Source: Pseudomonas sp. DC1.2 (GTDB taxonomy: Bacteria > Pseudomonadota > Gammaproteobacteria > Pseudomonadales > Pseudomonadaceae). Taken from it: a stretch of DNA of 64,000 nucleotides. Position numbers and translations under genes: made by a program. How positions within the stretch are numbered: the stretch's first letter is position 1; every line of letters begins with the position of its first letter. Of the stretch, positions 53,479 to 56,996 are shown in pieces. Under the pieces are notes generated by a model. It did not search any database. It was not told where the DNA came from and was given only the letters and a program-made list of their open reading frames with translations. Location: positions 4,531,001 to 4,595,000 of the forward strand of contig NZ_CP133782.1 in assembly GCF_034351645.1 (NCBI RefSeq), written 5' to 3'.

Positions 53479-53582
53479 GGGACTGATCCTACTGCTGAGG
53501 CTTGGTTCTGCGGTTGTGATCCGCAAAATTGATAGGTTATGCTCGCGCCGCGCCTATTTTGAAACAAAACGGCAGGAAGCCA

Positions 53583-55484
53583 ATGCCCTCTCCAATGGAA
53601 CACGTGCTTGTCGATAAGAGCGTCCTGTTTCAGGACCCGGATATTATCAACCGCATTCGCGGCAAGAAGGGTTTGCCATTCATATCCCACGCCGATCTTC
53701 TGCAACTTCAGTCCCTGACGACGGGGCACGAACAGGTCCATAAAAACGCGCGACAGTTTTTCCAGCTTTTCGCCAGCCACCCCTCGCGCCCGCACCGTAC
53801 ACTCCCAAAAGGTACAGCACTGCGCCCCGGCGACTTGTTGGCCGAATACGCTTTCGATGGCCAGCCGATCTTTGCGCTAAAGCGAACGGTTGCGCCACCG
53901 GACTCGGCCAAGGTGGGTGAAACCGTCGATTTATGCCGCCACTACGACTTGCTGTTGCTGACGTGTGACGAGGCGCAGCTCAGTCACTGCAAGGCCGCCC
54001 AAGCCAGAGCCACGCGCTGGATAGGTCGTGCTGGGAAAAACCCGGTGAATATATCGCCGCCAACCCTGCCTTTCGACCTCCCTGAAGCGCCCCTCGCTGG
54101 CGCTGACAGTCTGATCCAGAACAAAGGCGTCTCTGTCGCGCCCGGGTCGGTGGTGAAGACATCAAGTGGCCGCCAGTTGACGTTGAACGCCGCGATCAGC
54201 GCCGGTGGCGAAGGGACAATCTACGCCGTCGCGGGCAACGCTGAAGTGTGCAAAATCTATCACCCGGAAAAGCTCACGACTCGCCGCCGCGAAAAGATCG
54301 AGCTTATGGTGACGCGCCAAATCACTGAGCCTGGCATTTGTTGGCCAACCGAGCAGGTGTTCAACGCTCACCAAGAGTTTGTCGGCTATGTGATGCCCAG
54401 GGCGCAGGGAAAAACGCTGCAGACCGCCGTATTTGGCAAACCCATGCTGGCCAAAACGTTCCCGCAGTGGACACGACGAGATTTGGTCAATGTTGCCAGC
54501 GCGTTTCTGAAACAGGTGGAATACCTGCACTCGCTCAACATCATTGTTGGCGACATCAACCCGATGAACCTGCTGGTGACAGCGGACAGCAACAAGGTCT
54601 GGATGGTCGATACGGACAGTTTTCAGATCGGGCATTTTCCGTGCGAGGTCGGCACGGTGAATTTCACCGCCCCGGAAATCCAGGGGAAAAGATACAGCGA
54701 CTACCTGCGCACAAAAAATCACGAAACTTTCGCGGTCGCAACCATGCTGTTCATGATCCTGCTGCCAGGTAAACCGCCTTACTCGCAACAAGGGGGTGGG
54801 ACGGCCTCGGACAACATCAAAAACATGAACTTCCCCTATCGCTACAAAAAAGACAGCGGTAAAGGCAAAGTAAGCGTCACGCCGGTGGGTGCCTGGCAAA
54901 ACATTTGGAGTCATTTACCCTACGCGCTCAAACAGGCGTTCAGTGACACCTTCGAAGATAATCAGCGACGACCGCTCGGTGACTGGTTGAGGCTGCTGAC
55001 TCAGTACGGCGAAGAGTTGCGCAAGGGCAAGCATTGCGATGAGGTGTTTCCCGCCGCTTTTCATATCAACGACCCGGTTGAGGCTGTCTGTGGCACCTGC
55101 AAAAAAACCTACACCGAATCCAAATACTGGCTTAAGAAAATGCAGGCCGTCGGTAGATCGACCCGGTGTGCAGACTGTCAGCGGTCGTCCAAACTGAAAC
55201 AGCTGGCCAGTGAAAGCCAAAAGAAAACCGCGCAGGCAGAGCAGCGTGCGGCGCCACCTCCGGCAGCCTCCGTGCCTCGCGCCACTCCTGCGCCAGTTCG
55301 AAACGCACCTGCACCGGCACGGAAGACACCCTCCCCTGCGCCCGCGCCTCCAGCGCCGTCAAAACCGCAGCAGCAACCGGCTTCCCCCAGACCGCAACCC
55401 TATCCATCAGCACCCGCACGCCCCCTCAATCAAGAGAGCCTGGTGGTCCGCTGGTTCAAACGACTCTTGAAGCGTATTTTGTAA
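53583..55484 (+). CDS. PIN-like / atypical protein kinase / zinc-ribbon protein (YegI/TerY-P kinase type)
   Basis: This is a 633-residue protein. Residues 1-147 look like a PIN nuclease domain of the PhoH-associated kind: VLVDKSVLFQDPDIINRI, EQVHKNARQFFQLF, then YDLLLLTCDEAQL. The kinase core spans about 190-470: glycine loop ISAGGEGTIYAV, probable ATP lysine K224 (VCKIYHP), catalytic loop VGDINPMNLLV with D324 and N329, DTD (343-345) where DFG is usual, and TAPEI. A CxxC...CxxC zinc ribbon follows (C503, C506, C529, C532), then a proline/alanine-rich stretch (about 545-610) and an amphipathic basic end. The start is ATG 53583 behind AGGAAG. It forms one operon with the VWA and PP2C genes. 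Kinase plus zinc ribbon is known for this family; the PIN-like part is my inference from motifs. Confidence 0.85.
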   Translation: MPSPMEHVLVDKSVLFQDPDIINRIRGKKGLPFISHADLLQLQSLTTGHEQVHKNARQFFQLFASHPSRPHRTLPKGTALRPGDLLAEYAFDGQPIFALKRTVAPPDSAKVGETVDLCRHYDLLLLTCDEAQLSHCKAAQARATRWIGRAGKNPVNISPPTLPFDLPEAPLAGADSLIQNKGVSVAPGSVVKTSSGRQLTLNAAISAGGEGTIYAVAGNAEVCKIYHPEKLTTRRREKIELMVTRQITEPGICWPTEQVFNAHQEFVGYVMPRAQGKTLQTAVFGKPMLAKTFPQWTRRDLVNVASAFLKQVEYLHSLNIIVGDINPMNLLVTADSNKVWMVDTDSFQIGHFPCEVGTVNFTAPEIQGKRYSDYLRTKNHETFAVATMLFMILLPGKPPYSQQGGGTASDNIKNMNFPYRYKKDSGKGKVSVTPVGAWQNIWSHLPYALKQAFSDTFEDNQRRPLGDWLRLLTQYGEELRKGKHCDEVFPAAFHINDPVEAVCGTCKKTYTESKYWLKKMQAVGRSTRCADCQRSSKLKQLASESQKKTAQAEQRAAPPPAASVPRATPAPVRNAPAPARKTPSPAPAPPAPSKPQQQPASPRPQPYPSAPARPLNQESLVVRWFKRLLKRIL

Positions 55485-55509
55485 CGCGCCGACTCACAAG
55501 GATGATCCC

Positions 55510-56184
55510 ATGCAAGAAGATTATGTAATTCGTCAGGAAGACCTCATCGAAAACCCAACAGCACGCGTGCCCATTTGCCTCGTGCTGGACGTCAGCGGCT
55601 CGATGGAAGGCGACCCGATTGCGGAACTTCACGCCGGCGTTCAGATGTTTTTCGAGGCCATCCGTAAAGATGATGTAGCGCAATATGCTGCTGAAATCAG
55701 CATCGTCACGTTCGGCGGGACGGCGCAAAAAGTGCTGGATTTCAGTGACATTAATCGTCAGGACGTGCCGCCACTGGTGGCGTCAGGACTGACGCCCATG
55801 GGACATGCCGTTAACATCGCGCTGGACTTGCTGGAAGCGCGTAAGGAAGACTATCAGCGCGCCGGTGTTGATTATTACCAGCCGTGGATGGTGCTCATGA
55901 CCGATGGCGAACCCACCGACGATATTGGCTCAGCGGCTGCTCGCGTGGCCAGCCTGATAAGCCAGCGCAAACTGAGCGTTTTTCCTATTGCGATCGGTAC
56001 GGCGGTGAACATGCAGTCGCTGAGTCAGTTTTCTCCGACACGCCCGCCCCTGCGCCTGAAGGGCTTGAACTTCAATCAGTTCTTTGACTGGCTAAGCCGA
56101 AGCGTATCGCGGGTGTCGCAGTCGACACCTGGAGAAGAGGTAGCGCTGGACATTAAAGGTATCGAAGCCTGGGCACAGATCTAA
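55510..56184 (+). CDS. von Willebrand factor A domain protein (TerY/YegL-like)
   Basis: The 224 residues form one VWA domain with a complete metal-ion-dependent adhesion site: DVSGS (27-31), T95 in ASGLTPMGHA and D132 in LMTDGEPTDD. YegL and TerY proteins of this size are found with a Ser/Thr kinase and a PP2C phosphatase and are thought to be a metal-dependent scaffold or phosphorylation target. It lies 25 bases after the kinase gene and 2 bases before the phosphatase gene, with AAGGATGA upstream of the ATG. Cytoplasmic, no signal or TM segment. Confidence 0.93.
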   Translation: MQEDYVIRQEDLIENPTARVPICLVLDVSGSMEGDPIAELHAGVQMFFEAIRKDDVAQYAAEISIVTFGGTAQKVLDFSDINRQDVPPLVASGLTPMGHAVNIALDLLEARKEDYQRAGVDYYQPWMVLMTDGEPTDDIGSAAARVASLISQRKLSVFPIAIGTAVNMQSLSQFSPTRPPLRLKGLNFNQFFDWLSRSVSRVSQSTPGEEVALDIKGIEAWAQI

Positions 56185-56186
56185 CC

Positions 56187-56996
56187 ATGCCTGACATCCA
56201 GATCAATTTCAGTTGCAAAACAGCCTGCGCTTTTGTGGCAGGACGCTCACACCTCACGACTCACACACCTTGCCAAGACTATGTCGCTGCCAGACAGTCC
56301 AACGAGGTGACGTGCATCGCATTGGCCGACGGGGCGGGCTCCAGAGCCCGGTCCGATGTCGGCGCCCAGGTCGCGGTCACTGCGGCGCTAGCCTTTGTTT
56401 GCAAAAACTTTGAAAGTCTCTGGCAAAACGCGGAAAAATCCCACGCCAAGGCTGCGCAACGCCTGATAAATCGCTGCCTGGACGCGTTCAGACGCAAGTC
56501 GAAAAAACTGGGCTGCGAGATCAACGACCTATCCTGCACCCTGTCCTTCGTCGCTTTTTCACGGGGCCGCTACCTGGCAGGCCATTTGGGTGATGGCGTC
56601 ATCGCACGAGTTGATATAGACGGTCAACTTCTGGCCCTCTCTCATCCGGAAAACGGCGAGTACGCCAATACCACGCTGTTTCTGACGGACCCTAAAGTGG
56701 CTGGGCGCCTCAGGATGTACCGTGGCCCTGTAGAAGGCGCGACAGGCTTTGCGATCATGAGCGACGGCACGGCAGAAAGCCTCTACCACAAATCCAGTGG
56801 CATCCCCGCCCCGGCGATCCTGAAACTGCTGGAGTGGAATACATCGCTACCCAGAAAAAAAATGAAGTCGGTTTTGGCCGACAACCTGCAACACTCCATC
56901 GCCAGTAAAACCGGGGATGACTGCTCAATAGGATTGCTGTCGATCCTGAAGCAGGAGGGACAGACGCACGCTGTGAGCGCCGGCGAAGAGAATTGA
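56187..56996 (+). CDS. PP2C-type protein phosphatase (YegK-like)
   Basis: This 269-residue metal-dependent Ser/Thr phosphatase has acidic metal ligands in CQDYVAAR (D31), ALADGAGSRARSD (D48), GHLGDGVIA (D136), IMSDGTAESLY (D193) and KTGDDCSIGLL (D244/D245), which together define the PP2C site. It is the third gene of the triad, so kinase, presumed target and phosphatase are made together. It ends 65 bases before the convergent LuxR-type regulator; no clear terminator lies between. Confidence 0.92.
   Translation: MPDIQINFSCKTACAFVAGRSHLTTHTPCQDYVAARQSNEVTCIALADGAGSRARSDVGAQVAVTAALAFVCKNFESLWQNAEKSHAKAAQRLINRCLDAFRRKSKKLGCEINDLSCTLSFVAFSRGRYLAGHLGDGVIARVDIDGQLLALSHPENGEYANTTLFLTDPKVAGRLRMYRGPVEGATGFAIMSDGTAESLYHKSSGIPAPAILKLLEWNTSLPRKKMKSVLADNLQHSIASKTGDDCSIGLLSILKQEGQTHAVSAGEEN

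Follow-up and report, generated by a model that had tools for sequence, protein, structure and literature searches.

A TerY-P-type phosphorylation triad in Pseudomonas sp. DC1.2 whose kinase carries a predicted PIN domain with an incomplete nuclease site

Introduction

TerY-P systems combine a VWA protein, a PP2C phosphatase, and a zinc-ribbon kinase; versions with an OB fold act as stand-alone defence (PMC11090510, citing Anantharaman et al. 2012). In reported cases TerY-P triads guard bacteria against phages, with activity described against T7-like phages (PMC7699616) and against Autographiviridae in P. aeruginosa (PMC10889362). Comparable sets of kinase-zinc ribbon, PP2C, and VWA components have been described, as have PIN domains in the VWA components of other systems (PMC7159879). 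PIN domains also occur in PhoH2, where one is fused to a helicase and the protein has RNase activity (PMC4826407), and in the SMG5-SMG6 composite, where paralogous PIN domains complete one active site (PMC12923823). In E. coli, YegI is a membrane-bound Ser/Thr kinase that is dephosphorylated by the PP2C phosphatase PphC(YegK) (PMC13232886). Here, we analyze a triad of the TerY-P type in Pseudomonas sp. DC1.2, found within a 64,000-nucleotide stretch of contig NZ_CP133782.1 (positions 4,531,001 to 4,595,000; hereafter the window), in which the kinase carries an additional domain in front.

An initial annotation of the locus proposed that the front domain is PIN-like, that such an architecture is unusual, and that it suggests an RNA-cleaving or RNA-sensing output gated by phosphorylation. 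A PIN domain built into the kinase would link a phosphorylation switch to RNA. Because some natural lines have an intact PIN, others a disarmed one, and others none, the role of the domain is directly open to testing. No description of a PIN domain fused to the kinase of a TerY triad was found in the accessible portions of the literature searched, a search that did not reach the 2012 TerY triad paper. Databases name some members of the family "PIN domain-containing protein."

Results

Residues 1 to 150 of the window kinase are, as judged from profile homology and a structural model, a true PIN fold of the PhoH2 type. A search with the kinase part found 848 relatives; the counts given here cover the best 120 of them, which lie nearest in the family and include the window's own protein. 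PF13638 (PIN_4, the PhoH2-type family) is precomputed together with the kinase in 68 of these best 120. The window domain matched a profile of the 68 PIN_4-annotated N termini at 100 bits (E value of 4.5e-33, with a search space of one sequence), and hhalign matched the 10-row clade of the window to the same 68 N termini at 99.9% probability. Moreover, a profile of 20 diverse N termini, hand-picked from 34 nonredundant ones and including the window's own (profile A6), matched the solved PIN-type chains 1o4w_A (E value of 9.7e-7) and 3i8o_A (4.9e-5), and PIN_4 was matched by 15 of the 20 sequences in the set. Pfam gave no PIN family in the window kinase or in any of eight clade members, and when the window domain or its clade was used to query PDB sequences, only chance-level matches came back. 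An AlphaFold2 model built from 98 sequences (alignment A5, from which Sel1-bearing and truncated rows were excluded) had a mean predicted local distance difference test (pLDDT) score of 87.1, with block means of 77 to 97 across residues 1 to 150. Residues 6 to 145 of that model run strand, helix, helix, strand, helix, helix, hairpin, helix, strand, helix, strand, which we take to be the PIN order. A separate model from 10 close sequences reached a pLDDT of 38.9 and was set aside. The PIN-like front seen in the initial annotation is borne out, though without a direct Pfam match, by its homology to relatives that carry PIN_4 annotation and by the confident model that its suggested structure prediction yielded.

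Fusion of a PIN domain to the kinase is, by its recurrence among relatives, a trait of the family and not a one-off. The survey of homologs that had been suggested adds to the PIN_4-annotated relatives two triads from other hosts: a conjugative Paenarthrobacter plasmid (L008:2425-10136) encodes helix-turn-helix (HTH), PIN-kinase, VWA, and PP2C genes, and a record of Fusobacterium vincentii (L009) holds a PIN-kinase triad, with PIN_4 above the cutoff in both. With PIN_4 in so many of the best 120 listed relatives, the architecture is not the unusual one that it had been taken for.

The nuclease site of the window PIN domain is incomplete. In an alignment with PIN_4 relatives, the four canonical PIN acids fall at positions 11, 41, 111, and 129, where the window protein has D-Q-V-D and thus two of the four acids that mark a catalytic PIN ribonuclease. 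The full set, D-E-D-D, is present in 67 of the 107 kinases with a full N terminus (16 of 123 kinase rows have none and were excluded from acid counts and trees), comprising 67 of the 68 PIN_4-annotated proteins and 0 of the 39 others. Of the 40 rows that lack one or more of the four acids, 39 have D11, 32 have D129, 10 have E41, and 1 has D111. All 10 rows of the window clade share D11 and D129, and none is acidic at position 111; at position 41, six have E, three have K, and one has Q. No member of this clade has the complete set. Outside the acid set, D84, R101, and Y121 never vary across 98 of 98 rows, whereas W146 and P75 are each found in 96 of the 98. The initial annotation had named D11 correctly and had pointed to residue 129, the second acid kept; residue 108, however, is S and residue 145 is R, and the other canonical places hold Q41 and V111. 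It had also counted the absence of clustered acids across homologs as evidence against its reading, and that absence is found in part for the window protein and its clade but not for the wider family. With half of the canonical acids present in the window and a full set in no clade member, the proposed RNA-cleaving output is weakened.

Loss of the site appears to have been repeated. On a tree inferred from the kinase columns only, whose root was not inferred, the intact or incomplete acid state requires 5 changes (bootstrap range of 5 to 6), at least 4 of them forced by supported branches, and shuffled labels on the same tree require approximately 32. A quicker tree gave six changes, at least three of them forced. 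The approximately unbiased (AU) test rejected a grouping of all 40 incomplete rows together (P value of 1.6e-87), a group that had been defined by the trait itself. These results suggest that the nuclease site was lost approximately four to six times, if the ancestor was intact, as the majority of the family suggests.

Substitution rates indicate that the domain is maintained. Ratios of nonsynonymous to synonymous substitution rates (dN/dS; Nei-Gojobori method), calculated for the window and the related loci L002 and L003 only, were 0.14 to 0.24 for the PIN domain, 0.07 to 0.13 for the kinase domain, 0.13 to 0.17 for PP2C, 0.09 to 0.11 for VWA, and 0.27 to 0.50 for the linker and proline-rich stretch. 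By this measure, the PIN domain is under purifying selection and is more loosely kept than the kinase. Six of the 16 rows without a full N terminus were inspected; five seem complete and begin shortly before the kinase, and one seems cut. Because five of the six PIN-less relatives look complete, the PIN domain appears to be dispensable in some lines. The same five end in stretches that, by eye, resemble transmembrane (TM) segments.

Residues 621 to 632, at the end of the window kinase, have the highest hydrophobic moment of the whole protein. A hydrophobic kinase end is found across the family: FK closes 52 of 97 rows, and hydrophobic residues make up 58% of the last 14 positions in the family, compared to 22% in the preceding stretches. 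Because of this tail, the TM-like ends of PIN-less relatives, and the membrane-bound state of YegI, we infer that the C-terminal amphipathic helix is probably a tether of the kinase to the membrane.

The kinase, VWA, and PP2C genes are consecutive on the + strand (Table 1), with intergenic gaps of 25 bases (kinase-VWA) and 2 bases (VWA-PP2C). Translation of the kinase was taken to start at the ATG at 53583, which is the start, or lies within a few residues of the start, in most aligned relatives; the reading frame is open already from a TTG at 53529. Pfam matched Pkinase in the kinase (E value of 1.2e-9), VWA (1.3e-12), and PP2C_2 (1.7e-49). The four kinase residues and the four zinc-ribbon cysteines listed in Table 1 are invariant in the 123-row kinase alignment, and the five VWA and five PP2C residues are invariant in five aligned triads (window, L002, L003, Paenarthrobacter, and Fusobacterium); we take the listed kinase, VWA, and PP2C residues to be active or metal sites of their families. 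The locus is, by these matches and residues, a TerY-P-type triad for reversible phosphorylation, as had been proposed, and the phosphorylation cycle itself is predicted from sequence. The description of the kinase as atypical holds for its divergent sequence but not for its K224, D324, N329, and D343, which every row keeps.

Table 1. Predicted features of the triad (coordinates in the window)
Feature	Coordinates	Strand	Description
Kinase gene	53583..55484	+	633 aa; PIN-like domain, kinase domain, zinc ribbon, Pro-rich stretch, amphipathic C-terminal helix
PIN domain	53595..54026	+	Residues 5-148; predicted PhoH2-type fold; canonical acid places hold D11, Q41, V111, D129
Protein kinase domain	54150..55052	+	Residues ~190-490; K224, D324, N329, D343 kept
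Zinc ribbon	55071..55217	+	Residues ~497-545; C503, C506, C529, C532
Proline-rich low-confidence stretch	55218..55427	+	Residues 546-615
C-terminal amphipathic helix	55428..55481	+	Residues 616-633; possible membrane tether
TerY-like VWA protein gene	55510..56184	+	224 aa; D27, S29, S31, T95, D132 kept
PP2C-family phosphatase gene	56187..56996	+	269 aa; D31, D48, D136, D193, D245 kept

The triad is flanked by a gene of the metallo-beta-lactamase superfamily (Lactamase_B, E value of 3e-36) and a gene for a LuxR/MalT-like regulator (GerE, 3e-18; TPR_MalT, 7.2e-17), each on the opposite strand, in a genome that is a single contig of 5.82 Mb. Base composition gave no clear signal of foreign origin (GC content of 0.53 to 0.61 in the triad versus 0.56 to 0.63 in the flanks), and promoter and terminator scans yielded approximately the same as shuffled sequence.

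Full-length relatives were seldom found. A full-length kinase relative was found only in the window's own genome among 50 Pseudomonas genomes, with weak kinase matches in 2 others, and when another family member was used as the query, 1 of 89 genomes was found, again the window's own. L002 and L003 each have the complete triad, located at the same site as in the window. In Pseudomonas sp. UYIF39 (L004; 7867-8994), most of the kinase and the VWA gene are lost, and the PP2C reading frame remains. The flanking hydrolase gene is present in 29 of 40 Pseudomonas genomes searched, the window's own included. In 10 of the 28 other hydrolase-bearing genomes, the MalT-like gene adjoins the hydrolase with no triad between them, and in the remaining 18, the next 1.5 kb is other sequence.

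The Paenarthrobacter plasmid triad lies close to genes for a recombinase, a Mu-type transposase, and an AAA ATPase. Directly upstream of the Fusobacterium vincentii PIN-kinase is an HTH protein (L009:4679-5587), the second half of which is PIN-like and 36% identical to the PIN of the kinase (E value of 2e-17). Eleven listed relatives (P0082, P0086, P0095, and eight others) have Sel1 repeats beside the PIN and kinase domains, and all 11 have the four PIN acids. A search of viral contigs with the kinase alignment found one triad, which is PIN-less, and a search of phage records returned two partial kinase matches only. The viral triad (L010:6518-9956; VWA, PP2C, and kinase) is near phage portal and coat genes, and its kinase ends in an FGE-sulfatase domain.

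Discussion

How the front domain serves the triad can be read in several ways. The reading that we favor, and hold to be modestly probable, is a TerY-P-type switch in which the PIN domain of the kinase is a regulatory pseudo-PIN that no longer cuts RNA. The kinase would phosphorylate itself and/or a target, the PP2C protein would reverse that phosphorylation, and the VWA protein, its metal site intact, would bridge the partners. The pseudo-PIN may bind RNA or a nucleotide, or pair kinase molecules, through its conserved surface and thereby set kinase activity, while the C-terminal amphipathic helix would keep the kinase at the membrane. Such a switch might operate during stress or against phages. 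Since the window kinase falls in one of several lineages whose nuclease site is incomplete, we consider regulation by a pseudo-PIN more probable than a simple RNase output.

Several observations weigh against the regulatory reading and the supports on which it stands. Foldseek searches against PDB and BFVD returned no PIN among the top 50 matches each, only kinases or kinase-like rows. The search is uninformative on the front domain because the kinase part dominates the matches, and the claim of a PIN fold therefore rests on profiles and topology. PIN_4 annotation and possession of the four acids are interdependent, as Pfam scores the same motif. The window clade ends in FL, WL, or IL, not FK, and the helix tail has a dN/dS of 0.23 to 0.42 over 18 codons, a weak constraint. 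Moreover, E41 is retained in 6 of the 10 members of the window clade, and novel acids at positions 38 (9 of 10) and 113 (10 of 10) could rebuild the site.

These last acids bear on the proposal of the initial annotation that the chain is a phosphorylation-gated RNase. The PIN domain might be an active ribonuclease with shifted acids (D11, D38 or E41, E or D at 113, and D129), as D11 and D129 are constant in the clade, every member of which has an acidic residue at position 38 or position 41 and either E or D at position 113. The window itself has D38 and E113, and position 113 is K or R in 84 of 97 other kinases; the site of the wider family, moreover, is mostly intact. The missing acid at 111 in all 10 members and the nonacidic residue (K or Q) that 4 of them have at 41 point the other way, however, and the sister row P0010 lacks D38, has no acid at 113, and has N at 129, such that we consider a shifted site unlikely, if still a serious contender. 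Alternatively, the pseudo-PIN might complete or block the active site of another PIN protein, by analogy with SMG5-SMG6, for which a composite PIN is published (PMC12923823). The HTH-linked PIN-like protein beside the Fusobacterium PIN-kinase would suit such an arrangement, and the candidate in the window's own genome would be PhoH2, its one PIN_4 match (PIN_4 being the sole PIN family searched there). The PhoH2 gene is far off on the chromosome, however, and no second PIN gene lies in or beside the window triad, and we regard this arrangement as improbable. Least credible is that the front domain is a decaying relic without a role. Two canonical acids are gone, and most of the kinase and the VWA gene have disappeared from the related genome L004, where PP2C persists, yet the PIN domain has a lower dN/dS than the linker and proline-rich stretch in the three sequences compared, and D84, R101, and Y121 are unchanged throughout, such that decay seems very improbable.

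We advance a broader proposal more tentatively, and incline slightly against it: PIN-kinase triads, which occur in Proteobacteria, Actinobacteria, and Fusobacteria, may form a widespread family whose PIN mainly controls a membrane-held kinase. RNA cutting would have been dropped at least four times while a noncatalytic face (D84, R101, Y121, and W146) stayed fixed, and the window kinase would represent a disarmed line, perhaps an RNA sensor or a protein that completes or titrates another PIN.

The locus resembles each described system in part. SMG5-SMG6 acts in eukaryotic mRNA decay and has no kinase fusion, and it serves as an analogy only. YegI of E. coli matched only the kinase part of the family member P0014 and presumably has no PIN front. 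PhoH2 shares the PIN class, and a profile built from kinase fronts with PIN_4 annotation matches the PhoH2 of the window's own genome (E value of 7.4e-13, search space of 1), but the partner domain in PhoH2 is a helicase, and the window clade alone matches PhoH2 weakly (E value of 7.9e-4, search space of 1). TerY-P defence with an OB-fold kinase (Gao et al. 2020, via PMC11090510 and PMC7699616) likewise has a kinase, VWA, and PP2C, and residues 298 to 371 of the window kinase match STK_OB of PADLOC (E value of 2.3e-7). The window, however, has a zinc ribbon in place of the OB fold, its VWA protein matched TerY of PADLOC at 0.026, and its PP2C protein had no PADLOC match; by these comparisons, the triad does not fit the PADLOC OB-fold type. 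The TerY-P kinase-zinc-ribbon triad, as described in PMC11090510, differs in that the window kinase has an N-terminal PIN domain and that no CoCoNuT genes adjoin within the window, but it too encodes VWA, PP2C, and a kinase whose C terminus bears a zinc ribbon within a single operon.

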